From contig JAGOIF010000013.1 of the NCBI GenBank assembly GCA_017995775.1, positions 1 to 36,993 on the forward strand: DNA of 36,993 nucleotides, given 5' to 3'. Made by a program: the position numbers and the translations under genes. The notes beneath the pieces are model-generated. The model had not been told where the DNA came from. It saw nothing but the letters and a program-made list of their open reading frames with translations, and did not search any database. The DNA is from Aliarcobacter sp. (GTDB taxonomy: Bacteria > Campylobacterota > Campylobacteria > Campylobacterales > Arcobacteraceae). Each line of letters opens with the position of its first letter. The stretch's first letter is position 1. This document shows positions 21,984 through 36,806 of the stretch, piece after piece.

Positions 21984-23177
21984 TTATAATTCTAGAATTT
22001 TCCAAGGTAAACCTTGAGTCATTAACTCATCCATAAATGGTTTTGCATCAAACTCTTCTATATTAAATACACCTTTGTTTTTCCAAATACCTTTATAAAG
22101 TAATTTAGAACCAATCATCGCAGGAACTCCTGTTGTATAACTTACAGCTTGTGCTCCTGTTTCTTTATAACACTCTTGATGATCACAAACATTATAGAGG
22201 TAAACTTTTCTTGGTTTTCCATCTTTGATACCTTCAATAATACATCCAATATTTGTTTGTCCAACAGTTCTAGGTCCTAAACTTCCTGGATCTGGTAAAA
22301 GTGTAGTTAAAAATTCAATTGGTGTAATCATCACACCTTTATGCATAACTGGCTCTATTCCTAACATTCCAACATTTTGTAAACAATTCATATGTTGAAT
22401 ATAAGAATCTCCAAATGTCATAAAAAATCTAATTCTTTTTAAACCTTTGATATTTTTAACAAGTGATTCTAACTCTTCATGATATAAAAGATACGAAGCT
22501 TTTACACCAATTTCTGGATAATCATGATCAACTCTAATTTCTAGTGGAGTTGTTTCAATCCATTGTCCATTTTCCCAATATCTACCATTTGCAGATACTT
22601 CTCTTAAGTTAATTTCTGGATTAAAGTTAGTTGCAAATTTGTAACCGTGATCACCTGCATTGCAATCCATAATATCTATAGTGTGAATTTCATCAAATAA
22701 GTTTTGTTGAGCATATGCGCAAAATACTCCCGTAACACCTGGATCAAAACCTGAACCTAAAAGTCCCATGATTCCAGCTTCTTTGAACTGATTATCTCTA
22801 GCCCATTGTTCTTTGTATTCAAATTTCGCTTCATCTGGATGTTCGTAGTTTGCAGTATCTACATAATCAACTCCACATTTAGTACAAGCGTCCATAATTG
22901 TTAAATCTTGATAAGGTAACGCTACATTTAATACTAATTTTGGGTTTACTTTTTGAATTAATTTTACTAATTCATCTACATTATCAGCATCAACAGAAGC
23001 TACATCTATCTTTACACCTTGATTTTTTAAAATATCAGCAGCGATTATCTCACATTTTGAAATTGTTCTTGATGCTAATGTAATCTTTTCAAACGTGTCA
23101 ATATTCATTGCACTTTTAACAGTTGCAACCCTACTTACTCCACCTGCTCCGATAATTAAAATACCTTTTTTACTCAT
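21984..23177 (-). CDS. Carboxynorspermidine/carboxyspermidine dehydrogenase (saccharopine dehydrogenase family)
   Basis: A 397-residue NAD(P)H-dependent oxidoreductase. The N-terminal Rossmann motif is IIGAGGVSRVA (8-18). Family blocks VDYVDTANYEHPDEAKFEYKEQW, GLLGSGFDPGVTGVFCAYAQ and MDCNAGDHGYKFATNFNPEINLREVSANGRYWE are those of carboxynorspermidine synthases, which condense aspartate semialdehyde with a diamine and reduce the product. The product feeds NspC, encoded two genes downstream. It is the first gene of the minus-strand operon, and the divergent ssrA begins 149 bp away. In annotation pipelines it is often called lysine/saccharopine dehydrogenase; the gene context favours the polyamine role. 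Confidence 0.92.
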   Translation of the reverse strand: MSKKGILIIGAGGVSRVATVKSAMNIDTFEKITLASRTISKCEIIAADILKNQGVKIDVASVDADNVDELVKLIQKVNPKLVLNVALPYQDLTIMDACTKCGVDYVDTANYEHPDEAKFEYKEQWARDNQFKEAGIMGLLGSGFDPGVTGVFCAYAQQNLFDEIHTIDIMDCNAGDHGYKFATNFNPEINLREVSANGRYWENGQWIETTPLEIRVDHDYPEIGVKASYLLYHEELESLVKNIKGLKRIRFFMTFGDSYIQHMNCLQNVGMLGIEPVMHKGVMITPIEFLTTLLPDPGSLGPRTVGQTNIGCIIEGIKDGKPRKVYLYNVCDHQECYKETGAQAVSYTTGVPAMIGSKLLYKGIWKNKGVFNIEEFDAKPFMDELMTQGLPWKILEL

Positions 23178-23326
23178 TATTCACTCCGATATATTTTTAT
23201 GTATTTATTATACTATTTTTAATATTAGAAAGGTTGAAATAATTTAAAATAGTGGCTTTAGTAACAATTTGATTACAATTAACATAGTTTTAATAATTGC
23301 TTATGTAAACTTCCTTTTCGAGTTAT

Positions 23327-23715
23327 GGGGAAGTCCTGGCTTCGATTGGAGTGTTTCGGTTTTAGTTGCATGTCGGTATGAGCATATCGTTAAAAGGCTC
23401 AAAAATGTTTAAATGCAAACAATACAAATTACGCACCTCAAAGGGTAGCAGCTTAATTGCTCTACCCCCGCTCTCTGAATAGAGGCGGGTGTTGCTTCAC
23501 CTACAGATTATTCTGTTAGAGTAGGATTCGAAGTATAACAAACAAACAGATATATCTTAATTATTATCTTTTAAGTTAAGACTAACGCATAAAAGACAGT
23601 TTTATTAAAGTTTAATTGTACTTTTCTAAAATTAAATCGAACAATTAAAAAAGCATGTATAGATACTAAGGTCAAGCATTTTAAGACACGGGTTCGACTC
23701 CCGTCTTCTCCACCA
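23327..23715 (+). ncRNA. ssrA: tmRNA (ssrA)
   Basis: Transfer-messenger RNA that frees stalled ribosomes and tags the peptide for degradation. The 5' end GGGGAAG pairs with CTTCTCC at 23705-23711 (one G-U) to form the acceptor stem, followed by A and an encoded CCA at 23713-23715. The T arm GGGTTCGACTCCC lies just upstream. The tag frame runs 23415-23456, GCA to TAA, giving ANNTNYAPQRVAA. It starts ANN like Campylobacter tags and ends in AA, as Clp-recognised tags do. Length is about 389 nt. The sequence just after the CCA carries mobile-element debris, consistent with ssrA being an integration site. Confidence 0.95.
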
Positions 23716-23828
23716 ATACACAATCCAATGTAGTACAATATAGCTCAAATAGCTACCTAAATATGGGCCTTCAACCAACTTCACAGTTTTATACAGTTCT
23801 ATGTAATTCAATGTAAACTACTCAAAAA

Positions 23829-23871
23829 TGGCATATTATTTGGCATATTACTAAAAACACAAGTGGCATAT
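23829..23871. repeat. Three direct repeats of TGGCATAT next to ssrA
   Basis: TGGCATAT occurs at 23829-23836, 23841-23848 and 23864-23871, the last two extending as TGGCATAT(T/C)AC. Short directly repeated words close to a tRNA-like attachment site are what arm-type integrase binding sites look like. That reading is inference. Confidence 0.5.
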
Positions 23872-23931
23872 CACTTTTTACTTCATCTTAATTTTACAAA
23901 TTTCAAAATTCTTTTATTAATACAATGTGAT

Positions 23932-24114
23932 TCAATAGAATATCTTTTCCTCTTTATCCCATTCCACAATATACCAACTCCATGAGCTATCAGGTGTGAA
24001 GAATTTAATCTTTATTATCTTCTCTCCTGTAGCAATTTTCTTTGTTGCGTATAGTAGTGGTAGTGTTTTTTCTATTTCTTTTGGCTGAAATTGACAGTAT
24101 TTTAAGTTCGCATT
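23932..24114 (-). pseudogene. Truncated DUF2958 gene fragment
   Basis: A 60-codon open stretch on the minus strand with no ATG, GTG or TTG near its beginning, bounded upstream by a stop codon. It reads QFQPKEIEKTLPLLYATKK...IKIKFFTPDSSWSWYIVEWDKEEKIFY. The LP.LYAT and KFFTPDSSW.WY.VE blocks are the core of DUF2958, a domain of unknown function common in plasmids and integrative elements. Intact members continue past this point with an FFGYV-like strand, which is missing here. Both ends are therefore lost. It is best explained as a relic of an element inserted at ssrA. Confidence 0.75.
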
Positions 24115-24321
24115 CTAAATCTCTAAAGAGTTTTGAGTATTTTATGTTTCAAAGATAGGAAGTTGTAGAACAATTGAGTTGAAAAATATTAAGATAGATA
24201 AAAAGATTTTTATTATTTTATAAAATGATACTATTTTGGTACTTTTTTTATCTATACTTTACTATTGATAAATTACTAAGAATAAAAAATCACTTAGATA
24301 TTTTTAAAATAAAGTTTAAAA

Positions 24322-24352
24322 TTCTATTTATTAATTCTATCAATAAATAGAA
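24322..24352. promoter_or_regulatory. 11-bp inverted repeat in the leader of the second chemoreceptor gene
   Basis: TTCTATTTATT (24322-24332) and AATAAATAGAA (24342-24352) are exact reverse complements with a 9-nt spacer, ending 26 bp before the ATG. It could be an operator or an mRNA hairpin; no T-tract follows. Confidence 0.4.
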
Positions 24353-24378
24353 ATTAAATTAAAACTTAAAGGAATACA

Positions 24379-26271
24379 ATGGGAATAAACAATTTAAAAG
24401 TAAGTACGAAGATACATATTATTACATTAATGTCATTTCTTCTTCTTAGTTCAGTAACTGTTTTTTTATATAATGGAATGTCTAAAATACAAGAAGACTA
24501 TAAAAATACTTCTGCAATCTCAAATTTAGAGAATACTATTTTGATGACAATAGAACAGGGTTTACAATCAACCGCTGCACTAAGAGGTGTAGTTGTTAAT
24601 CCATTAGATCAAAAAGCAAGAGATAATTATATTTCTGCTGTAAGTAAATATGATAGTTTAATTAAAGAATTAAAAGAAACTTCAAATATTTCAAAAGGAT
24701 ATACACAATTTGAAATAGATAAGTTATATGATTCTCAAAAGATTTTACTTTATTCTTTAGTTGATAAATTAAAGAATACTGAATCGTTTACCCAAGATGA
24801 TAATTCAATATTTACAGAAAAATGGAGACCAATTAAATCAGCTTTAACAAAATGGCGAGAATTAAATCAAGAAAATATTAAAAAATTAGATCTATCTTTC
24901 AAAAATAATATATCTTCAACAACAATATCAGTTGTTGTTATTTTACTTTTAACTATTGTTCTTATAGCAATTTTAATACAATTCATTGCAAAAAATATTG
25001 TTCAACAAGTTACAATTTTTCAAAATGGCTTATTTGATTTTTTTAGATATTTAAATAAAGATAGTGCAAGTGTTTTACCTATTAAAATAAATTCAAAAGA
25101 TGAGTTTGGACAAATGGCTGCAATTGTAAATGAAAATATTCAACAAGTACAAAATATTATAAATCAAGATAATGAATTAATAGAAGATGCAAAAATAGTA
25201 ATGAAAAGAGTAAATAACGGTTGGTACAGCCAATATATAGAATCACATACTCAAAACACATCTCTTGAAGAATTTAAAGATAATGTAAATAAAATGATTA
25301 AAAGTACAAGAGAAAGATTTGTAGAAGTGGATGAAGTTTTAGAAGAGTATGCTAAACATAATTATATATCAAAATTAACACTAAAACCTAATGATGAAAA
25401 AGGTGGAGTTTTAGAAAGATTAGTTATTGGAATTAATGGTCTTCAAGGTTCAATTACACAAATGCTTGTTGAGAATAAATCAAACGGATTAACACTTGAA
25501 GATAGTTCAAAAATATTACTTACTAATGTAGATAAACTAAATGCTAGCTCAAATACAGCTGTTGCTTCTTTAGAAGAAACAGCTGCTGCATTAGAAGAGA
25601 TTACAAGTAATATTAGAAACAATACTCAAAGTATTTTTAAAATGTCTACTTTGGCTCAAGATGTTACAAAATCAGTAAAAGATGGTGAAGTTCTTGCTAC
25701 TGAAACTGTTAATGCAATGCAAGAGATAAATAATCAAGTACAAGATATTAATGATGCAATTGCAGTAATTGATCAAATTGCATTTCAAACAAATATTCTT
25801 TCATTAAATGCAGCTGTAGAAGCGGCCACAGCAGGAGAAGCAGGACGAGGATTTGCAGTTGTTGCACAAGAAGTAAGAAACCTAGCTTCAAGAAGTGCAG
25901 ATGCTGCTAAAGAGATTAAAAATATAGTTGAACAAGCTAGAAATAAAGCAGATGTAGGGAAAACAATTGCAAATAATATGATAATAGGATACGGAAGTTT
26001 AAATCAGAATATCACACAAACTATTGAACTAATTGAAAATATAGAACATGCATCAAAAGAGCAATTACAAGGAATTGAGCAAATTAATGATGCTGTAAAT
26101 GCACTAGATCAACAAACACAACAAAATGCAGTTGTTGCATTACAATCCCATGAAGTTGCAGTTATAACTGATAGTATCGCTAAATTAGTTGTAAAAAATG
26201 CAAATGAAAAAGAGTTTATAGGTAAAAACGCCGTTCTTAAAAAAGAATTAAATATAATTTTTGAAAATTAA
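24379..26271 (+). CDS. Methyl-accepting chemotaxis protein with a helical periplasmic domain
   Basis: A 630-residue chemoreceptor. Helix 1 lies at about 13-31 and helix 2 at about 183-204. The 150-residue region between them is predicted all-helical (four-helix-bundle type), unlike the Cache receptor earlier in the window. A HAMP-like and coiled-coil region follows ([19 protein letters not shown], then a second repeat near 330-345). The signalling hairpin has [46 protein letters not shown]. The signalling halves of the two receptors are near-identical over this tip. Start is supported by AAAGGAA 6 bp before the ATG. It sits beside a kinase/regulator cluster but has its own leader. The ligand is unknown. 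Confidence 0.93.
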
Positions 26272-26303
26272 GAAATTAGGCGATTATTAGTAAAGTTTAA
26301 TCT

Positions 26304-27359
26304 TTAAATAATTGATATTTTAATACTAAACTTTACTCCATTTTCTATATTTTCAACACTAATATCACCATTTAAATATTTTTCCATAATCATTTTACAG
26401 ATATATAGCCCTAGTCCCGTACCATTCTTTTTCTTTTTAGTTGAATAATAAGGCTTGAATATTTTATTAATATTAGCAAGAGGAATTCCTCCTGCATTAT
26501 CTTGTATTTCTATTATTTGAAAAGAATCATTTTGAGTAAAATTTATTTTTATTAGAGGATTCTCAACAGTATTTGTACCAAATGCATCTTTTGAGTTATT
26601 TAATATATTTAAAATAATTTGAATTAAATCATTTTTGCATAAATATATTTTTTCTAAAGGCTCTTGGATGTTTATTTCTAAACTAATTCCTTCTTCATCA
26701 AAATTATTTTTTACAAGTTTATATGTTTCTGTAAATACTTCATCTAATTTTATAAAATCTTTTTTATTATCAGTTTTTAAAAAATCTCTAAAATGATCAA
26801 TTGTATTTGACATATATTGAATATGATCATTAATTAAAGTTAGTTTTTCATCATATGTATTTATATCTATATCTTTTAGATTATATTTTAGTTTCAATCT
26901 TGTAATAATTGATCCTATTGTGCTTAAAGGCTGTCTCCATTGATGCGCAATTACAGAAATCATCTCTCCCATCGCTGCTAGTTTTGACTGCTCAAGGAGA
27001 ATTTTTTCATTCTTTTTCAATTCACTTAAATCTAAAATAGAAACCATTTTATAGATAGTGTTTTCTATTTGTAAATCTTTAATTTTTATGATTGCAGGAA
27101 TTGTATCGGCGTTTTTATTTAATAAGAATATCTCTTGAAACATCTTGCTATTGTATTGTATAAATTTTTCTTTTGAAGTTGGTATCAAAATTCCAACAGC
27201 TAGATTTCCTATTAATTCATTTTCATCTTCATAACATAAAATTTCCATTAAAGGTTTATTTACATACTTTATAAATCCATTTTCAATTATTACTATTCCT
27301 TCAATTGTATTATCAAATATTTGATGAATGTTATTAAAAAAGTTACTATTTGCAGGCAT
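26304..27359 (-). CDS. Soluble PAS sensor histidine kinase (HxWRQPL type)
   Basis: A 351-residue kinase without membrane helices, so it senses a cytoplasmic signal. A PAS domain occupies about residues 8-115. The phosphoacceptor region is SVIAHQWRQPLSTI (His139), the HWRQP subtype common in Campylobacterota. The ATPase domain has the N box (ILNILNNSKDAF), G1 (QDNAGGIP) and G2 (KKNGTGLGLYI). The ATG at 27359 is preferred over one at 27416, because the latter lacks a ribosome-binding site and overlaps the divergent promoter region, whereas TTGGAAAC precedes the former. It is divergent from an OmpR-type regulator, its likely partner. Confidence 0.9.
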   Translation of the reverse strand: MPANSNFFNNIHQIFDNTIEGIVIIENGFIKYVNKPLMEILCYEDENELIGNLAVGILIPTSKEKFIQYNSKMFQEIFLLNKNADTIPAIIKIKDLQIENTIYKMVSILDLSELKKNEKILLEQSKLAAMGEMISVIAHQWRQPLSTIGSIITRLKLKYNLKDIDINTYDEKLTLINDHIQYMSNTIDHFRDFLKTDNKKDFIKLDEVFTETYKLVKNNFDEEGISLEINIQEPLEKIYLCKNDLIQIILNILNNSKDAFGTNTVENPLIKINFTQNDSFQIIEIQDNAGGIPLANINKIFKPYYSTKKKKNGTGLGLYICKMIMEKYLNGDISVENIENGVKFSIKISII

Positions 27360-27416
27360 TTTGAAGTTTCCAATTAAATTTTGATTTGATTTTAGTATTA
27401 TAATTATTTTATACAT

Positions 27417-27422
27417 TATAAT
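27417..27422 (+). promoter_or_regulatory. -10 box for the OmpR-type regulator; overlapping -10 on the other strand
   Basis: TATAAT at 27417-27422 on the plus strand, and TATAAT read on the minus strand from 27420 to 27415. This compact divergent promoter region separates the kinase and regulator genes. Confidence 0.45.
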
Positions 27423-27460
27423 CTATATAAATAATTGTTTACTTTAAATGTGGAGAAAAA

Positions 27461-28204
27461 ATGCTTGATTATATACTTTTGAAAAAATACTCAAAAGATC
27501 TTTCAATTTTATTTGTTGAAGATGATATTCACATTAGAAATGAAACAAAAGAATTACTTGAAGAGATTTTTTCTGTTGTTCATGTAGCAGTTGATGGAAA
27601 AGATGGTTTAGAAAAATATATTAGTTTTTACGAAGAATATCAATATTATTATGATGTAGTTTTAAGTGATATTAAAATGCCAAATATGGATGGAATAGAT
27701 TTAATAAAAGCTATTTATAAAGAGAATAAAAATCAAATTATTTTAGTTCTTTCAGCTCATAATGATATTGAATATTTAATGGAACTAATAAACATTGGAA
27801 TTAGACAATTTATTTTAAAACCATTAAACTATAATAACTTCATAGATACAATTTTTAAAATAAACAAAGAATTATATTTTGAGAAAAATAAAGAAATAGT
27901 TCAAGATACAATAAAACTTTCGCCTAATCTATTCTGGCATAAGCACAATGAAGAATTAAGAGAAAACGATAAATTAATTAAACTTACAAAAAAAGAATTC
28001 TTATTAATTTCGCTACTTATAAAATCTCCTGAAAAAACTTATAGTGTTGAAAAAATTCTTTCTACTTTATGGAGAGATGATTTTAATCAAAATCCTGTCA
28101 TTACAAATCTTAAAAATATTATTTCTAGACTTAGAAAAAAGGTAGTATCTTTAAATATAGAAAATGTTCATAGTTTTGGATACAAGATTCATATATCTAT
28201 CTAG
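27461..28204 (+). CDS. OmpR-type response regulator (REC + winged helix)
   Basis: A 247-residue transcription factor. The receiver has the acidic pair Asp21-Asp22 (FVEDD), phospho-Asp70 (VLSDIKMPNMDG), Ser98 (LVLSAH) and Lys120 (FILKPL), so it should be phosphorylatable. The C-terminal winged helix (about 165-245) contains LTKKEFLLISLLIKSPEKTYSVEKILSTLW, NLKNIISRLRKK and VHSFGYKI, the OmpR/PhoB pattern. A GGAG ribosome-binding site precedes the ATG. The divergent HxWRQPL kinase is the likely cognate partner. Target genes may include the downstream lipoprotein and phosphodiesterase, but no binding repeat was identified. Confidence 0.92.
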   Translation: MLDYILLKKYSKDLSILFVEDDIHIRNETKELLEEIFSVVHVAVDGKDGLEKYISFYEEYQYYYDVVLSDIKMPNMDGIDLIKAIYKENKNQIILVLSAHNDIEYLMELINIGIRQFILKPLNYNNFIDTIFKINKELYFEKNKEIVQDTIKLSPNLFWHKHNEELRENDKLIKLTKKEFLLISLLIKSPEKTYSVEKILSTLWRDDFNQNPVITNLKNIISRLRKKVVSLNIENVHSFGYKIHISI

Positions 28205-28245
28205 TTATTTAATTAAAATGATACTTTTTTAATACTCTTTCTTGA

Positions 28246-28251
28246 TATAAT
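28246..28251 (+). promoter_or_regulatory. -10 box upstream of the small lipoprotein gene
   Basis: TATAAT 25 bp before the ATG at 28277. An AT-rich stretch lies in the -35 region. It may drive the lipoprotein and the downstream HD-GYP and kinase genes, which have only short gaps between them. Confidence 0.45.
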
Positions 28252-28276
28252 CGATTTTATATAAAAGGAGTTAATC

Positions 28277-28471
28277 ATGAGAACGTTAACTTTATCATCA
28301 TTGATTATATTAGTATTAACAGGATGTTTAAAAGATACAGAATCTTTAAGTAAAGAAGAATGTATAAAAAAAGGATTCATGTTTACAAGTGAAAAAAGAT
28401 TAAATTATAGAACAGGTAAATACGAAATGAAATTTATTTGCTTAGATAATATCAAGCCTAATAATTTATAA
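28277..28471 (+). CDS. Small putative lipoprotein
   Basis: A 64-residue protein with a short signal peptide ending in the lipobox LVLTGC (acylated Cys17). The mature part is about 48 residues, with two further cysteines (Cys29 in KEECIKKG and one in KFICLD) that could form a disulfide. AAAGGAG precedes the ATG. No family is recognised. It lies between a response regulator gene and an HD-GYP gene and may share their transcript. Confidence 0.75.
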   Translation: MRTLTLSSLIILVLTGCLKDTESLSKEECIKKGFMFTSEKRLNYRTGKYEMKFICLDNIKPNNL

Positions 28472-28498
28472 ATTAAAATATTAATAAAGGAATTGCAT

Positions 28499-29545
28499 AT
28501 GACAATAGAAAATATGCGAGTATTATCAATAGACGACAATCAAACTAACTTATTGATTGTTGAAAGTTATGCAAAGATGATTGGCTTAAATATAGAAAGC
28601 TGTTTAGACCCTAGAGATGCTATAAATAAAGCGGAATTAAATGAATATGATTTAGTAATAGTTGATTATATGATGCCTGAAATTAATGGTTTAGAATTTA
28701 TAGAGATATTTAGGAAAAGGAACAAAGTAACTCCAATTATAATGTTAACTGCTGTTGGAGATGATATGAAACTTCAAATAGATGCATTAGAACTTGGAGC
28801 AAATGATTTTTTAAGTAAACCTATTAATGCACCTGTATTTAAAGCAAGAATTATTAATATGCTTAAACTAAGAAAAGCTCAATTATTAATAAAAGACAAA
28901 GCATTACTTTTAGAAGAAGAAGTTATAAATGCGACAAGAAAATTAATAGATTCAGAACAAGAAACTCTACAAATGCTAGGTAAAATTTCAGAATATAGAG
29001 ATCCAGAAACAAGTGCACATACTCAAAGAGTTGCTTCTTATTCAAAATTTTTAGCAAAAAAATATGGTTTAGATGAAGAACAACAAGATATTATTTTTTA
29101 TGCATCTCCTTTTCACGATATTGGGAAAATTGGAATTCCTGATAATATTTTATTAAAACCTGGAAAATTAAGTGATGAAGAACTTATCTTTATGCATAAA
29201 CATTCAAGTATTGGATATGAAATTTTAAAAGATGCAAGAAGTAAATATTTAAAAGCAGGTGGAATAATTGCTTTAAATCACCATGAAAAATATGATGGAA
29301 ATGGTTATCCAAATGGTTTAAAAGGTGAAAATATACATATTTTTGGAAGAATTACTGCAATCGCAGATGTTTTTGATGCATTAACTTCAAAACGACCATA
29401 TAAAGATGCTTGGACTTTAGAAAAAGCATTTCTTTTTTTAGAAGAGGAAAAAGGAAAACATTTTGATCCCATATTAATTGATTTATTTTTAAAAAATAAA
29501 GAAAAGATTATTGAGATTTTTCACCAGTTTCAAGAAAAGGACTAA
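28499..29545 (+). CDS. Response regulator with HD-GYP cyclic-di-GMP phosphodiesterase domain
   Basis: A 348-residue two-domain protein. The receiver carries the DD pair (SIDDN), phospho-Asp56 (VIVDYMMPEING), Thr (IMLTAVG) and Lys107 (FLSKPI). The HD-GYP domain has SAHTQRVA (His174), the HD dyad in PFHDIGKIGIPD (206-207), HKHSSIGYEIL, and HHEKYDGNGYP with the GYP signature (269-271). These residues bind the metal centre that hydrolyses cyclic-di-GMP to pGpG or GMP. The ATG at 28499 is chosen because AAAGGAA lies 6 bp before it; an in-frame TTG six bases earlier is too close. It ends 5 bp before the haem-sensor kinase, so phosphorylation by that kinase is likely. Confidence 0.93.
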   Translation: MTIENMRVLSIDDNQTNLLIVESYAKMIGLNIESCLDPRDAINKAELNEYDLVIVDYMMPEINGLEFIEIFRKRNKVTPIIMLTAVGDDMKLQIDALELGANDFLSKPINAPVFKARIINMLKLRKAQLLIKDKALLLEEEVINATRKLIDSEQETLQMLGKISEYRDPETSAHTQRVASYSKFLAKKYGLDEEQQDIIFYASPFHDIGKIGIPDNILLKPGKLSDEELIFMHKHSSIGYEILKDARSKYLKAGGIIALNHHEKYDGNGYPNGLKGENIHIFGRITAIADVFDALTSKRPYKDAWTLEKAFLFLEEEKGKHFDPILIDLFLKNKEKIIEIFHQFQEKD

Positions 29546-29550
29546 GCTTA

Positions 29551-32500
29551 GTGTTTAAATTATTTTTTAAACTTTTAAAAGTTATCAAAAATCCAATTAT
29601 TGGTCCTATTGCTGTGGCAAGTATTACTTTGCCTATATTAATAATATTTTATTTACCTAGTTTATTTTTAGATAACGAGAAGAACAAAATTACTAAAGAA
29701 GCCCTTGCTGTTGTTGATAATCTAAAAACTTTTAGAACCTATTATGATAACTATGTTATTTCAAAAGTTACAAAGAATACAAATTTAGAAATAAATTTTG
29801 ATCATGAAAATAGTTTAAATACTATTCCTCTTCCAGCAACTATTATTCATAATTTAAGTAAAAAACTTCCTAATAAAGATGGTGTTTATATAAATTTTGT
29901 AAGTGATTTTCCATTTCCTAATAGAGCGGATAGAATATTGGATTCTTTTCAAAAAGAATCTATTGATTACTTTAGAAACAATAAAACTGACTATTATGTA
30001 AAAGAAGAAACAATTAACAATCAGAAAGTTTTAAGAGTCTCATTACCAGATATTATGGTAAATCAAAGCTGTTTATCTTGTCATAATACTAGAGCAGATT
30101 CCCCTAAAAAAGATTGGAAAATTGGTGATGTAAGAGGAATAATAGAAGTTATAATGCCTTTACAAAATCAATTTGTCTTAACTGTAAATCAAACTAAATT
30201 GATGATTATTTTTATGATGTTTATTTCATTAGCATTTATTTTGCATTATGGAATTCTTTATTTTAGAAAAGAAAAAGAAGCTCTTTTTCAGACAAAACAG
30301 TTAAGAAAAGAAGTTAAGAAACGTACAAAAGATTTAGAAGAGAGTAATGTATTACTTCAAGAATATAAAAAAGCTGTAGATGCAAGTGCTATTGTTTCAA
30401 AAACAAATCCTAAAGGAATTATCACTTATGTAAATGATGCATTTTGTGAGATATCTGGATATTCAAGAGATGAACTTATTGGAAAACCTCATAATATAGT
30501 GCGTCACCCTGATATACCAAAAGAGTTATTCAAGAAACTTTGGGAAACTATTCAAAATAAAAAAACTTACAAAAGTATTATTAAAAGTAAATCAAAAAAT
30601 AATCAAACTTATTTTGTAGCAAATACTATTGTTCCTATTTTAAATAAGAAAAATGAAATCATTGAATATCTTTCATTAAAATACGATATTACTGAGCTTG
30701 TAGATGCAAGAGAAAAAGCATTACAAGCTCAACAAACAAAAGGATTATTCCTTGCAAATATGAGTCATGAAATAAGAACTCCACTTAATTCAATTATTGG
30801 ATTTTCTAATATTTTATGCGAAAGTAATCTTGCCTTTAAAGATAAAGAACATGCCAAGATTATCTCTAAAAGTGCAAAGTCCTTACTTATTCTTATAAAC
30901 GATGTTCTTGATATTTCTAAAATTGAAAGTGGGAAACTTGTTCTTGAAGAAAAAAGTTTTTCTTTACTTAATCTAACAGAAGACGTGGTAGAACTATTTT
31001 CTATTAGTTCAATTGAGAAAAATCTTAAGTTTCTTTATACTGTTGATCCTAATTTAGATTTATTAATTAAAGGTGACTCAACCAGATTGAAACAAGTTAT
31101 TTCAAATCTTCTTAGTAATGCTATTAAATTTACTCCTCAAAAAGGAACAATATCTTTAGATTTAAGAATTTTGAAATTTGATGAAGCATCTAAAAGAATA
31201 AAAATAAAATTTACTATTAAAGATAATGGAATTGGAATGACTAAAGATCAATTAGCTCTTATATTTAAGCCATTTTCACAAGCAGATACAGGAATTAATA
31301 GGAAATTTGGGGGAACAGGTCTTGGACTTGCAATTTCATGGGATATTATAAAAGCAATGAACTCACATATTGAAGTTTCAAGCCAATATGGAAAAGGAAG
31401 TGAATTTAGTTTTGATTTAGATTTCAATATTGTTAAAACTAACAAAGATTATGTTAAAGATTCTAATCTGAAGATTGCTATTAGTTCATTAAATCAAGAT
31501 CAAGATAATTTAAAAATCAGTGTTAAAAACTATCTTCATAAAATAGGAACAGTTTGTGAATTAAAAGAAAATATAAATGCTGAGTTTCTATTTTGTTTTG
31601 AAAATAGTAATATTATTGAAGAAATTAAAATATTTAAAAAACAAAACCCTAAATCAAAAATTGTATTTATTGGTGAAAAAGACTTTTTAAGTCAAAATTG
31701 TTTAAATTTAATAGATTATCATTTAGGTTTACCAATATATGGTTCAAAAATCTACAATGTAATTAACCATCATTCAAAGATTCATTCTAATATTTTAAAA
31801 CAATCTTCTATTAATAAAAAAAGTTTTAATGCAAATGTTTTGGTTGCAGAAGATAATACAAACAATCAAAAATTAATTCAAATATTACTTGAAAAACTTG
31901 GTATTAATCCAACTATTGTTTCAAATGGTCAAGAAGTTATTGAAGCTTATAAATCAAACCTTTACCAATTGATATTAATGGATATAAATATGCCTATTTT
32001 AGATGGTATTAGTGCTACCAAAGAGATAATAAAACTTCAAAAAGAAAAAGACTATTATAAAGTTCCTATTGTTGCTTTAACTGCAAACTCAGTGGCTGGC
32101 GATAAAGAAAAATATTTAGATCAAGGTATGGATGAATATATCTCAAAACCTATTGTCTTTAATGAACTTATTGTAGTTTTAAACAAATTTTTAAAATCTG
32201 ATAATAAAGTAAATGATATTATAAAGCTAGATTCAAAAGTTGATATTGAAAAAATATCTAAAAATCTAGGTATTCCAATAAAGTTTGCGAATAATTTAGT
32301 AGATAGTTTTATGAAAAATATTTTAATTGATTTAGAAGAATTACATGAATATATAATTTTGGAAAAATCAGAAGAAATTTCTCAAAAAGCGCAATATATT
32401 AGAAATTCTTGTTTAAATATATCTTTAGACTTTGTTATTGAAGATCTTATTTATATAGAAAATAACAATGAAAATACGCAAAATCTTGAAACAATATATA

Positions 32501-32559
32501 TGAAAATTTATAAATATATAAAGGAAAATTTTGATTTAATAAAGGCTGAGAAAATATGA
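29551..32559 (+). CDS. Hybrid histidine kinase with periplasmic c-type haem (DUF3365-like) sensor and PAS domain
   Basis: A 1002-residue kinase. Helix 1 lies at about 16-40 and helix 2 at about 216-237. Between them is a DUF3365/Tll0287-like sensor with QSCLSCHNT, a CxxCH haem-attachment site (Cys174, Cys177, His178). A short coiled coil and an Aer-like PAS (275-385, with IVRHPDIP) follow. HisKA has phospho-His406 (NMSHEIRTPLNS), and HATPase has N, G1 and G2 boxes (to about 620). A degenerate receiver lies at about 636-745 without an acceptor Asp. An intact receiver (762-880) has Asp811, Thr844 and Lys866. The tail (about 890-1000) is Hpt-like, but the histidine position is Gln948. GTG start after AAAGGA. 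Overlaps the next kinase by 4 bp. Confidence 0.9.
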   Translation: MFKLFFKLLKVIKNPIIGPIAVASITLPILIIFYLPSLFLDNEKNKITKEALAVVDNLKTFRTYYDNYVISKVTKNTNLEINFDHENSLNTIPLPATIIHNLSKKLPNKDGVYINFVSDFPFPNRADRILDSFQKESIDYFRNNKTDYYVKEETINNQKVLRVSLPDIMVNQSCLSCHNTRADSPKKDWKIGDVRGIIEVIMPLQNQFVLTVNQTKLMIIFMMFISLAFILHYGILYFRKEKEALFQTKQLRKEVKKRTKDLEESNVLLQEYKKAVDASAIVSKTNPKGIITYVNDAFCEISGYSRDELIGKPHNIVRHPDIPKELFKKLWETIQNKKTYKSIIKSKSKNNQTYFVANTIVPILNKKNEIIEYLSLKYDITELVDAREKALQAQQTKGLFLANMSHEIRTPLNSIIGFSNILCESNLAFKDKEHAKIISKSAKSLLILINDVLDISKIESGKLVLEEKSFSLLNLTEDVVELFSISSIEKNLKFLYTVDPNLDLLIKGDSTRLKQVISNLLSNAIKFTPQKGTISLDLRILKFDEASKRIKIKFTIKDNGIGMTKDQLALIFKPFSQADTGINRKFGGTGLGLAISWDIIKAMNSHIEVSSQYGKGSEFSFDLDFNIVKTNKDYVKDSNLKIAISSLNQDQDNLKISVKNYLHKIGTVCELKENINAEFLFCFENSNIIEEIKIFKKQNPKSKIVFIGEKDFLSQNCLNLIDYHLGLPIYGSKIYNVINHHSKIHSNILKQSSINKKSFNANVLVAEDNTNNQKLIQILLEKLGINPTIVSNGQEVIEAYKSNLYQLILMDINMPILDGISATKEIIKLQKEKDYYKVPIVALTANSVAGDKEKYLDQGMDEYISKPIVFNELIVVLNKFLKSDNKVNDIIKLDSKVDIEKISKNLGIPIKFANNLVDSFMKNILIDLEELHEYIILEKSEEISQKAQYIRNSCLNISLDFVIEDLIYIENNNENTQNLETIYMKIYKYIKENFDLIKAEKI

Positions 32560-35500
32560 AAAATATAACAATAAAAACAAAATTAGTTCTATTATTTATT
32601 GTTATAAAAGTAATTCCTCTTTTACTCATTTCTTATATAGCATTTGAGGGAGTTAAGAAGCTTGAAGAATATGTAAATAAAAGTACAAGATCATTATTTA
32701 ATGATAATAAAGAAATTATAATAGCAACAGCTAATGCTTCTATTGAAGATAGTATTAAAAATCTAGATAAGAAATCTCAAACTTCTTTAGAAAAAGTATC
32801 TTATGAAATGGCAAAAAATGTTTCGGATTTCTTATATGAAAGAGATAAAGATATTTTATTTTTATCTAAACTTCCTCTTACTCAAGAAGTATTAGAAAGT
32901 TTTTATGAAACAAAAAATAAAGAAATCACTGAACATGGAGAATATCTTTATAATGATGAAAAGCAAATATTTGAGCCAAAAGATACTCAAATAACATATA
33001 AAAGAAAGTCTACAACAGCTTTATTGAAAGATAATGAAAAAGAGTTTAACTACATAGATCCAAATCTTTTTAAAACAAAAACTCTTCCTTTGTACAAAGA
33101 GATTAATTTCTTTGATCTACAAGGAAATGAGCTTTATAAAGTTTCAAGTATAAAAAAAGAAAAAACAAATGTTTTTGATTCTAAAAACACTTATGTAAAT
33201 GCAGAAAGCTATTTTAAAGAAGCAATAGATTTAAAAGAAGGTGAAATTTATGTTTCAGATGTAATTGGTGAATATGTTGGAACAAAAGTTATTGGAACTT
33301 TTACAAAAGAAAAAGCTAAAAATGCAGGGATTGAGTTTGAGCCTGAGAAATACGGCTATGCAGGAGTTGAAAATCCTCTAGGAAAAAGATTTGAAGGAAT
33401 TGTAAGATTCATAACTCCAGTTTTTAAAAACAATCAAAAAATTGGCTATATCTCTTTAGCACTTGATCATAGACACTTAAAAGAGTTTATTAATACTTCA
33501 AATCCAACAGGAATTTCTTCAAAACAAAATATTGCTGATGCAAGTTTGGGAAATTATGTTTTTATGTGGGATTATGAAGGGAAAAGTATCGTTCATCCAA
33601 GGGATTATTCAATAGTTGGCTATGATAAAAACACTGGAAAACTTGCTCTTCCTTGGCTTAGTAGTGATGTTGCTGAAAAGTTTTATGCTTCAAATAAACC
33701 AATTGATGAGTTTTTAAAAAGCTACCCTACTTTTGAAGATCAAGGCTTACATAAAAAACCAAATTTAAAACAGCTAAAAGAAGATGGATTAGTAGGTTTA
33801 GATTGCAAATACTTAAACTTTGCTCCACAATGTCATGGATGGATGGAATTAACACAACATGGTGGTTACGGTTCATTTATTATAAATTGGAGTAATGTTT
33901 GGAAACTTACAACTGCTGCAACTATTCCTTATTTTACTGGAAAATACAAAGATTCACCTCGTGGTTTTGGATTTATTTCAATTGGTGCTAATGTTGATGA
34001 ATTTCACGCAGCTGCAAATGAAACTAAAAAAAATGTTGATTTGATCTTAGAAACACAAACTAGTAAAATGAAAAATAATTTAGAAGAAAATAGTTTAGAA
34101 ATAAGTGTATTTATTAATAATCTTCTAAATGAATTATCAGTTGTTACATTTATTATGATTATTTTGATTATTTCAATTGCTTTATGGATGTCAAATTATG
34201 TTACTTCAAAAATAAATAATTTAATTGAAGGAACTAAAAGATTTACAAACAATGACTTTAGTTATAGAATAGAAGTTAGCTCAAATGATGAAATTGGGAA
34301 CCTTGAACAGTCCTTCAACCAAATGGCTTCAGAGATAAACTCCTTGATTTTAAAGCAAATAGAACTTAATGAAAAACTTGAAGATAAAGTTGATGAAAAA
34401 ACAAAAGAACTTTTAGAAATTAATAAAAATTTAGAATTAGTAATTGAACAAAGAACAAAAGATTTAAAACATTCTTTATTGAAATCACAAAATTCTGATC
34501 AAGTAAAATCAACTTTCTTAGCAAATATGAGTCATGAAATAAGAACTCCTCTAAATGCAATTATAGGATTTTCAGAAGTATTAAGTAGCAATAGTAAAAT
34601 TGATGAAGAGAGCCGTAAACAAGCCATAATTGTAGAAGATAGTGCTAAATCACTTTTAAATATTATCAATGATATTTTAGATGTTTCAAAAATTGAAAGT
34701 GGAAATTTTGAAATTAGTCTTATTCAAACATCATTAAAAGATATCTCAAAAAGTGTATTTGAACTTTACTTAAGTAAATCACAAAACAAACAAATCGTTT
34801 TTTCTTTTGATTTAGATGAAAATATACCATCTTGCGTTATAACAGATGCATTTAGAATAAAACAAGTTCTATCAAATTTAATAAGTAATTCATTAAAATT
34901 TACTCCTAATCATGGTCAAATTGAGCTAAGAATTTCTGTCTTAGAAAAAAGTGATTATAATGCTCGTATTAGATTCTCAGTAAAAGATAATGGTATTGGT
35001 ATTGCTTCAAATAAATTTGATAAAATTTTTGAACCCTTCGTTCAAGCAGATGACCGTTCAAATAAAAAATATGAAGGAACAGGTCTTGGTCTTAGTATTT
35101 GCCAACATATAGTTCAATCATTTAATTCATCTTTAAAAGTTGAAAGTCAGGTGGATGCTGGTTCTACCTTTTGGTTTGATTTAGATTTTAAGATATGTGA
35201 AGATGTAGCTAGTATAAACAATGATTTAAAAAAGACTGATTTTAAAGGAAATATTTTAGTAGTAGAAGATAATATTTTAAATCAAGAATTAATCAAATAT
35301 TTTCTAGAAGAGCTAAAATTAGATTTTACCCTAGTTGAAAATGGACTTGATGCCCTTGATAAGTTCAAAGAAAATAAATATGACTTATTCTTAATGAATA
35401 TAAATACATCTGGTTTAAAAGCGTTAGAGACTTTTAAACTATTAAGAGAATATGAAAAAGAAGATATGCTAAAGCCAGTGTTTATAACAGCACTAAGTAT

Positions 35501-35993
35501 AAATAGTTTAAAAGAAGAAGAAAAAGAGATATATTTAGAAGTAGGAATGAATGATTACTTACTAAGTCCTCTTTCATTTGAAGTTTTTAAAAAACTCATT
35601 TTAGAAGTTTTAGATAAAAGATTAGATGAAGATATTAATAAGGTAGAAATAAAACCTAAAAGAAAAATCATAGAAGTAAATTTTAGTAAATCAGAAACTA
35701 TGAAACAATTAGGTCTTGATGAAGATACTATAGATATGCTATTAGCTAATTTCTTTTCAACACTAGAGCATGATATTCAAAAACTTGAAAATGCTATTGA
35801 TTCTTCCATAGCTCAAGATATTGTTCAAGCATCACACTATTTAAAAAGTTCTTCTGTCAATCTGGTGATGAAAGAAGCTTCTTTGATACTTGAAAATATA
35901 GAAAAAGATGCAAAAAATGGCAAAGTTACTTTTGAAAAAAATGTGATTGAAGATTTAAAATACATATTTAAAAAAATCAAAGAGTCTATATAA
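32556..35993 (+). CDS. Hybrid histidine kinase with a large extracytoplasmic Cache-like sensor, HAMP, degenerate receiver and Hpt
   Basis: A 1145-residue kinase. Helix 1 lies at about 9-30 and helix 2 at about 527-546. A roughly 490-residue periplasmic domain of double-Cache type lies between them, with VRFITPVFKNNQKIGYISLALD, a conserved-looking block with CKYLNFAPQCHGW, and RGFGFISIGANVDEF. A HAMP domain (about 547-600) and coiled coil follow. HisKA has His660 (NMSHEIRTPLNA), and HATPase runs to about 878. The receiver (898-1015) keeps the acidic start (VVEDN) but has Asn948 for the phospho-Asp (FLMNIN) and Ser1004 for the Lys. The C-terminal Hpt (about 1045-1140) keeps His1094 (SHYLKSSSVNL). 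The ATG overlaps the upstream kinase stop (ATGA). Confidence 0.9.
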   Translation: MKNITIKTKLVLLFIVIKVIPLLLISYIAFEGVKKLEEYVNKSTRSLFNDNKEIIIATANASIEDSIKNLDKKSQTSLEKVSYEMAKNVSDFLYERDKDILFLSKLPLTQEVLESFYETKNKEITEHGEYLYNDEKQIFEPKDTQITYKRKSTTALLKDNEKEFNYIDPNLFKTKTLPLYKEINFFDLQGNELYKVSSIKKEKTNVFDSKNTYVNAESYFKEAIDLKEGEIYVSDVIGEYVGTKVIGTFTKEKAKNAGIEFEPEKYGYAGVENPLGKRFEGIVRFITPVFKNNQKIGYISLALDHRHLKEFINTSNPTGISSKQNIADASLGNYVFMWDYEGKSIVHPRDYSIVGYDKNTGKLALPWLSSDVAEKFYASNKPIDEFLKSYPTFEDQGLHKKPNLKQLKEDGLVGLDCKYLNFAPQCHGWMELTQHGGYGSFIINWSNVWKLTTAATIPYFTGKYKDSPRGFGFISIGANVDEFHAAANETKKNVDLILETQTSKMKNNLEENSLEISVFINNLLNELSVVTFIMIILIISIALWMSNYVTSKINNLIEGTKRFTNNDFSYRIEVSSNDEIGNLEQSFNQMASEINSLILKQIELNEKLEDKVDEKTKELLEINKNLELVIEQRTKDLKHSLLKSQNSDQVKSTFLANMSHEIRTPLNAIIGFSEVLSSNSKIDEESRKQAIIVEDSAKSLLNIINDILDVSKIESGNFEISLIQTSLKDISKSVFELYLSKSQNKQIVFSFDLDENIPSCVITDAFRIKQVLSNLISNSLKFTPNHGQIELRISVLEKSDYNARIRFSVKDNGIGIASNKFDKIFEPFVQADDRSNKKYEGTGLGLSICQHIVQSFNSSLKVESQVDAGSTFWFDLDFKICEDVASINNDLKKTDFKGNILVVEDNILNQELIKYFLEELKLDFTLVENGLDALDKFKENKYDLFLMNINTSGLKALETFKLLREYEKEDMLKPVFITALSINSLKEEEKEIYLEVGMNDYLLSPLSFEVFKKLILEVLDKRLDEDINKVEIKPKRKIIEVNFSKSETMKQLGLDEDTIDMLLANFFSTLEHDIQKLENAIDSSIAQDIVQASHYLKSSSVNLVMKEASLILENIEKDAKNGKVTFEKNVIEDLKYIFKKIKESI

Positions 35994-36007
35994 TAGTCTC
36001 TTTGATT
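35975..36007 (+). terminator. Possible terminator after the hybrid kinase operon
   Basis: AATCAAAGAG (35975-35984) and CTCTTTGATT (35998-36007) pair exactly, with CTAT/ATAG extending the stem after a T-T mismatch. The kinase stop codon is in the loop. There is no T-tract, so termination is uncertain. Confidence 0.45.
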
Positions 36008-36110
36008 CTAATAGACTTCTACATCATTCACATCCATTTTTAATCAAAAATATACTTTTGTATTTTAGTTACTATACAAATTATAAAATGAATTAGGGGA
36101 AAGAATAACT

Positions 36111-36806
36111 TTGGAAAAATTACATAAATGTTCAGTTTGTCAAAAAGATTTCAAAAGTACTGAGATGATAAATGCTGGAATTATTCGTGAGGGAATTTAT
36201 AAACTTATACAAAAAGACATTTTAACTTGGAACGAATCATCAGAAATTTGTAGGGATGATTTACATCTTTATCAAAATAAATATATTCATTCCATCCTTG
36301 AATCAGAAAAGGGTGAATTAACTACACTTGAACAACAAGTTTTACAAACTATGAAAGAACATGAACTTATCTCAATAAATTCTGATACAACCCTAGATCA
36401 CGAGTGGTCAAGGGGTGAACGAATTGCTGATAAAATTGCAACTTTTGGTGGAAGTTGGATGTTTATGGGATATTTTGCACTATTTTTAATTATTTGGATA
36501 GGCGTAAATGCCACTGTTATATTTTGGAAACCAGTAGATCCATATCCTTTTATTTTATTAAATTTATTACTTTCTTGTCTTGCTGCTATTCAAGCACCAA
36601 TAATTATGATGAGTCAAAATAGACAAGAAGCAAAAGATAGATTAAGATCTCAATATGATTATCAAGTTAATTTAAAAGCAGAACTTGAAATAAGACAACT
36701 TCATGAAAAAATGGATCATCTTCTTTCACATCAATGGGAAAGATTGGCTCAAATCCAAGAAATTCAAATTGATCTTTTAGAAGAATTACGACGAAAAGCA
36801 AAATAG
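36111..36806 (+). CDS. DUF1003 membrane protein
   Basis: A 231-residue protein. The N-terminus has CSVC (Cys7, Cys10) and a later Cys47 that may form part of a metal-binding finger. The DUF1003 core (about 95-200) includes WSRGERIADKIATFGGSWMFM, two membrane helices (about 115-133 and 146-166), the connecting VIFWKPVDPYPFILLNLLLS and APIIMMSQNRQEAKDR. The C-terminal 60 residues are a charged coiled coil. Start is a TTG at 36111 with GGGGAAAG upstream; no earlier ATG fits. The function of DUF1003 proteins is not established. The gene appears to be a separate unit after the kinase operon. Confidence 0.88.
   Translation: MEKLHKCSVCQKDFKSTEMINAGIIREGIYKLIQKDILTWNESSEICRDDLHLYQNKYIHSILESEKGELTTLEQQVLQTMKEHELISINSDTTLDHEWSRGERIADKIATFGGSWMFMGYFALFLIIWIGVNATVIFWKPVDPYPFILLNLLLSCLAAIQAPIIMMSQNRQEAKDRLRSQYDYQVNLKAELEIRQLHEKMDHLLSHQWERLAQIQEIQIDLLEELRRKAK

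Follow-up and report, generated by a model that had tools for sequence, protein, structure and literature searches.

What has happened at the 3' end of ssrA, the tmRNA gene, in this Aliarcobacter genome, and is the gene itself native to its place? We analyzed the window (the whole stretch of 36,993 nucleotides, from an assembly of 209 contigs and 2.5 Mb) against a genus sample of 31 genomes, one per species, from records named Aliarcobacter or Arcobacter. The results point to an explanation in two layers, which we consider likely: a decayed island scar lies at ssrA, and a class B tmRNA has replaced the native gene in place. A sequence-only reading of this DNA had proposed the island, and it missed the foreign nature of the ssrA allele itself. 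Genomes are given below by their handles in the sample, where G004 is Arcobacter caeni RW17-10, G009 is A. cryaerophilus gv. crypticus LMG 9065, and G021 and G022 are the metagenome-assembled genomes (MAGs) Aliarcobacter sp. STC_123 and STD2_58.

The ssrA gene occupies positions 23327-23715 on the plus strand, as called by ARAGORN and matched to Rfam RF00023 (138.9 bits, model positions 1-374). It has a tag frame, tRNA-like ends and a CCA terminus, and the tag reading frame, ANNTNYAPQRVAA, lies at 23415-23456 on the same strand (ARAGORN). Upstream, on the minus strand at 21984-23177, is a saccharopine dehydrogenase gene identified by Pfam. It is the native upstream neighbor of ssrA, is present in 29 of the 31 genomes and adjoins ssrA wherever inspected, and it was used as a vertical marker. 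Between the two genes, a putative promoter region (23267-23326, plus strand) is common in alignments to native and foreign alleles except for its last ~10 nucleotides, which read TTCGAGTTAT in class B.

Directly 3' of the tmRNA CCA, the CAATGTA/CAATATA-like words (repeat families D5 and D6) and the three TGGCATAT repeats that the earlier reading had described are indeed present. The latter start at 23829, 23841 and 23864 on the plus strand (span 23829-23871), and TGGCATAT occurs five times in the whole window against 1.0 expected, a count reached in none of 100 shuffles. Bases 23723-23942 align with the DNA directly 3' of tRNA-Cys in G018 and G008; shorter matches ranking below these two loci in the same search were disregarded. 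At both loci a gene for a 415-residue integrase, which we take to be a P4-type tyrosine integrase, lies 3' of the arm DNA. The G008 copy carries Arm-DNA-bind_3 and Phage_integrase domains, and two TGGCATAT repeats stand at the corresponding place between tRNA-Cys and the integrase gene in each genome. From their position and the arm-binding domain, the TGGCATAT repeats are probably integrase arm sites. One could instead regard the region as AT-rich intergenic DNA with chance repeats, given its G+C content of 24.6% and the frequency of weak AT-rich matches. This is extremely unlikely: the match begins only a few bases past the 3' end of the RNA gene in all three loci, it reaches 82% over 77 bases in G018 (E 5e-14), and the same repeats recur in G018 and G008. 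We conclude that the ssrA-proximal ~220 bp, at 23716-23938 on the plus strand, are evidently the remnant of the attachment arm (attL side) of an element with an integrase of this type, and that the integrase has been lost.

The sequence-only reading had also suggested a search for integrases with TGGCATAT repeats upstream, and such a pair was found in G018 and G008 only, that is, in two of the 16 matches that a query of the G008 type returned from 13 of the 31 genomes (E ≤ 1e-80). Among the other 14 matches, a tRNA gene (Arg, SeC or Cys) is close by in nine cases and ssrA in one (G012), and four have no RNA gene nearby in the available stretch. The window's own genome gave no match to the G008 integrase at E ≤ 1e-80, and seven query integrases found no integrase gene in the first 3 kb after the window's ssrA. 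As a side observation, related integrases in G030 (L232) and G026 (L224) stand beside tRNA-SeC, an uncommon island target.

Where the arm ends, a piece of a DUF2958 gene begins. The earlier reading had placed a junction near 23932, and alignment puts it at 23932-23938, where similarity to the G018 arm stops and DUF2958 similarity starts. The fragment itself lies on the minus strand at 23935-24084, within an open frame of 23935-24114, and its identification as a DUF2958 gene lacking both ends was upheld by one test and not by another. It matches an intact gene at 38 of 50 residues (76%), with the start missing and a cut after KIFY. The 60-residue fragment alone gave no match to DUF2958 (PF11171) in Pfam above the curated cut-off, whereas the intact relatives in G002, G009 and G029 score above it (E 1.4e-11, 1.3e-16 and 2.3e-13); the homology thus rests on the pairwise match. 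A failed HMM test of the DUF2958 similarity was one of the refuting outcomes that the sequence-only reading had named, and in those terms the fragment does fail. Low-identity AT-rich blastn matches beyond 24114 were disregarded. Separately, the tRNA-Cys island of G008 has a DUF2958 gene with an internal deletion (L118:8442-8588, ~6.3 kb beyond the integrase start), which fuses its first 24 residues in frame to its last 25.

The orientation of the fragment is informative. The DUF2958 gene is directed away from the RNA gene in the G002 and G008 islands, but towards ssrA in the window. Plain internal deletion therefore cannot yield the junction, which requires an inversion or another source besides deletion, and no attR was found. 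The earlier proposal that the arm had been joined to internal sequence by plain deletion is thus not borne out. G010 and G011 have reverse-strand DUF2958-like genes at distances of 9.6 and 15.2 kb downstream of ssrA.

Nor was the insert simply removed. The A. caeni ssrA is followed, after 163 bp, by the start of a DUF1003 gene. Homology between the window and that genome restarts at 36062 and continues to 36993 (plus strand; 95% identical to the DNA directly 3' of the A. caeni ssrA), covering the DUF1003 gene (36111-36806) and the start of yaeQ, the downstream backbone gene shared by G002, G004, G029 and the window. Relative to A. caeni, 12.35 kb (23716-36061) still separates ssrA from the chromosomal backbone, so the idea of an island that was inserted at ssrA and then deleted holds only in part. 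The DNA absent from A. caeni holds the scar and, at 24379-35993, a chemoreceptor gene and a series of genes for histidine kinases and response regulators; the best matches of the chemoreceptor are 47-65% identical in 18 other genomes of the genus (E ≤ 1e-150). Its G+C content is 25.0%, against 26.4% upstream of ssrA, which makes composition uninformative on its origin. A displaced ssrA 3' end (attR) was sought in the window and not found. Part of the 12.35 kb may be remaining cargo of the scar element.

Together these features suggest how the scar arose. The element would have carried a P4-type tyrosine integrase of the subfamily that G008 and G018 have at tRNA-Cys, and it would have entered at the ssrA 3' end. 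Its left arm was probably kept while its integrase was lost, and the arm would then have come to abut the reversed DUF2958 fragment. The loss of the integrase and the placement of the arm against a reversed fragment argue for decay by rearrangement and not for clean excision.

Such elements are present elsewhere in the genus, in agreement with the premises of the sequence-only reading that ssrA is an integrase target and that DUF2958 genes travel on mobile elements: islands were found at ssrA, and DUF2958 genes were found in related islands. G002 has a 13.3 kb ssrA island with an integrase, a DUF2958 gene and a displaced ssrA end, and displaced ssrA-type ends of 13-21 nucleotides occur in G002, G003, G008, G027 and G030. 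A 12-nucleotide TTCTCCACCAAA in G009, at 14.5 kb, was considered as an island end and rejected, because it sits in DNA collinear with G007. In G020 (L049) we observed a displaced-end-like sequence followed, 1.6 kb after ssrA, by 695 bases with a cut integrase gene that match the sequence just 3' of the G003 ssrA (L045) at 97.7% identity, which looks like two islands in tandem.

The second layer concerns the tmRNA gene itself. One full tmRNA scored above the cut-off in 28 of the 31 genomes, and none had two. The native class A, with tag ANNTNYAPAYAKAA, is found in 21 genomes. Class B, with tag ANNTNYAPQRVAA, is found in G000, G004, G009, G021 and G025, the window's genome included. A third type, b', is found in G022 and G029 with tags ANNSNYVPMRVAA and ANNNTYMPQRVAA, and in three genomes when the b'-like end in G023 is counted; G024, likewise incomplete, has class A-type pieces, and G019 gave no match above the cut-off. 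Classes A and B are only 52-54% identical, b' and B 81-84%. A tmRNA tree of the order (70 rows) unites B and b' with full support; the stem of this group measures 0.62, and the closest tmRNAs outside it are 57% identical. In the b' genomes (G029, L036; G022, L037) the shared promoter region is separated from the tmRNA gene by ~35 additional bases, as though the b' genes had brought their own promoter along.

At E ≤ 1e-20 the window's tmRNA was matched in 8 of 104 genomes of the family, all of this genus, and in 8 of 397 genomes of the phylum, two of these matches being weak and from another family. No close class B relative outside the genus was found among the 397 phylum genomes sampled. A 26-nucleotide class B pattern gave four stretches in the GTDB collection, all from Aliarcobacter or Arcobacter records. 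We also sought class B on plasmids, phages and viral contigs, and no carrier was found. A topology that unites all Aliarcobacter tmRNAs in one clade was not rejected for the tmRNA tree (p 0.25); class B may thus be a lineage that evolved fast within the genus, rather than one brought in from elsewhere.

Evidence for replacement comes from comparing the tmRNA with its neighbor gene. In all ten class B pairs the tmRNAs are 99.0-99.7% identical, whereas the saccharopine dehydrogenase genes are 87.5-91.7% identical in nine pairs and 96.8% in one. Among class A pairs, 123 of 210 have a neighbor identity of 86-92.5%, and their tmRNAs are 83.6-99.2% identical (median 91.8%). One of the class A pairs, G020-G010, combines a tmRNA identity of 99.2% with a neighbor identity of 91.1%; high tmRNA identity alone is thus not unique to class B, and native class A alleles may have been exchanged too. 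The neighbor-gene tree (29 rows) implies at least six changes of tmRNA type and rejects a single clade of B and b' (p 3e-40, for groups named after the tree had been viewed). For example, G020 (A), G021 (B) and G029 (b') have neighbor genes 96-97% alike and three different tmRNAs. It follows from the tree that the tmRNA gene has evidently been replaced repeatedly within the genus.

Could these types instead be ancient paralogues that coexisted in an ancestor and were lost differentially, with no transfer at all? Such a history would accord with the single tmRNA per genome seen today and with the single clade that the tmRNA tree does not reject. We find it very unlikely, since class B is nearly identical across species in the nine pairs with divergent neighbor genes, the two types share one locus and its flanks, and none of the 31 genomes holds two tmRNAs. 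An assembly or binning error that introduced class B from a contaminant is a thought raised by the 209 contigs of the window's genome and by other carriers that are MAGs. Its probability is next to negligible, because the carriers include the strains LMG 9065 and RW17-10 and the single-contig genomes G025 and G029, and because ssrA stands beside its usual neighbor gene on the same contig.

The clearest case of replacement is provided by G009 (B) when compared with G007, where native flanks lie on both sides of the foreign allele. Upstream, the two genomes are 89-97% identical per 100 nucleotides across 2 kb. Between the matching flanks the tmRNAs are 53% identical, and from 500 bases past the tmRNA start identity returns to 91-98%. 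In the first comparison window after the gene it is 77%, and G009 has a ~20-nucleotide repeat there. The downstream match itself begins at the third base after CCA and extends for 14.9 kb at 95.6%. In G029 (b'), 14 nucleotides of a native-type ssrA end, GCACATCTCCACCA, are found 3.6 kb downstream, the kind of remnant expected of a displaced island end. This suggests that an island entered while the gene was still native, with the change of type taking place in that event or afterwards. A native-type end with one mismatch, at 9.2 kb in G025 (B), is only suggestive. Together the results show a foreign allele in the window's ssrA, with the native gene replaced whole and in place and the recipient's upstream gene kept.

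As to how the exchange took place, class B, a strongly diverged tmRNA allele, would have spread between Aliarcobacter species, and we infer its agent from the edges of the foreign tracts. On the left side this would be homologous recombination, probably after natural transformation; A. butzleri is described as naturally transformable (PMC8308473). The left limits, judged by eye from alignments, lie close to the beginning of the dehydrogenase gene in G029, whose intergenic DNA resembles that of G022 and G025 and not that of its sisters, at about -80 to -50 in G021 and at about -64 to -30 in G009. That the limits differ between genomes fits a picture of separate homologous recombination events.

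The right edge is where readings diverge. If the donor carried class B with matching flanks on both sides, homologous recombination alone could have sufficed, with no integrase or microhomology step. We take this possibility seriously while favoring another. The left edges and the competence of A. butzleri fit it, and similar arm DNA after ssrA in G021, G029, G018 and G001 offers possible right-hand homology. In G009, however, the right flank is native relative to G007 just after CCA, which leaves ~10 shared nucleotides for a crossover, and the foreign tract ends within TCTCCACCA or at the next base. Some 10 bases are scant for homologous recombination and the spot is the same as that of island insertion, so a site-specific or microhomology step at the right edge is likely. 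In this clearest case the right side would have been joined by an integrase or by microhomology at TCTCCACCA, which is also the attachment core of the islands.

In a bolder proposal, class B ssrA moves as a cassette, with island integrases cutting its right end at the TCTCCACCA core. As the allele sets the attachment site, swapping ssrA could then evict islands or block them. We hold this to be unlikely. In line with it, an intact integrase beside ssrA was found in none of five class B genomes, in 7 of 20 informative class A genomes and in one of three b' genomes, by a search with seven query integrases that misses other kinds and with G018 dropped because only 56 bases follow its ssrA. These numbers are too small to count as evidence of a link between class B and the lack of an integrase.

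The scar is of an ordinary, known kind. Integration of islands at ssrA, with one gene end restored and another displaced, is well documented in the Islander work (PMC4383910). The scar shares with those islands a tyrosine-integrase element at the ssrA 3' end and a restored gene on one side, and displaced fragments likewise occur in other genomes of the genus. Unlike them, it has lost both the integrase and the displaced fragment and retains only the arm, a reversed gene fragment and, possibly, cargo. The replacement of the whole ssrA gene may be new: in the open-licence literature, covered mostly by titles and the beginnings of abstracts, we found no report of whole-gene tmRNA replacement, and the main text of a 2025 tmRNA database paper uses the word "horizontal" 0 times (PMC11915505). 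Second ssrA alleles, some of them plasmid-borne, and phage tmRNA are on record (PMC4131195). Those cases resemble ours in that a tmRNA gene may move or occur as an additional allele. Class B differs in that it replaces the gene in place between native flanks, in several species, and a search for copies of it on phages or plasmids found none.

Xenologous gene displacement in situ, in which a foreign allele comes to lie between native flanks, is the broader category. The present case differs in that the gene encodes a ribosome-rescue RNA, brings another degradation tag and has been exchanged several times in one genus. The tmRNA is near-universal and usually single-copy, and as a partner of SmpB, ribosomes and proteases it is expected to be inherited vertically. 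Here the RNA body and the degradation tag switch between sister species, and the neighbor gene does not. The genus thus offers natural allele pairs with which to test which features of the tmRNA body and of the tag are indispensable. It may also be that the host gene itself is exchanged through the traffic of islands at ssrA.
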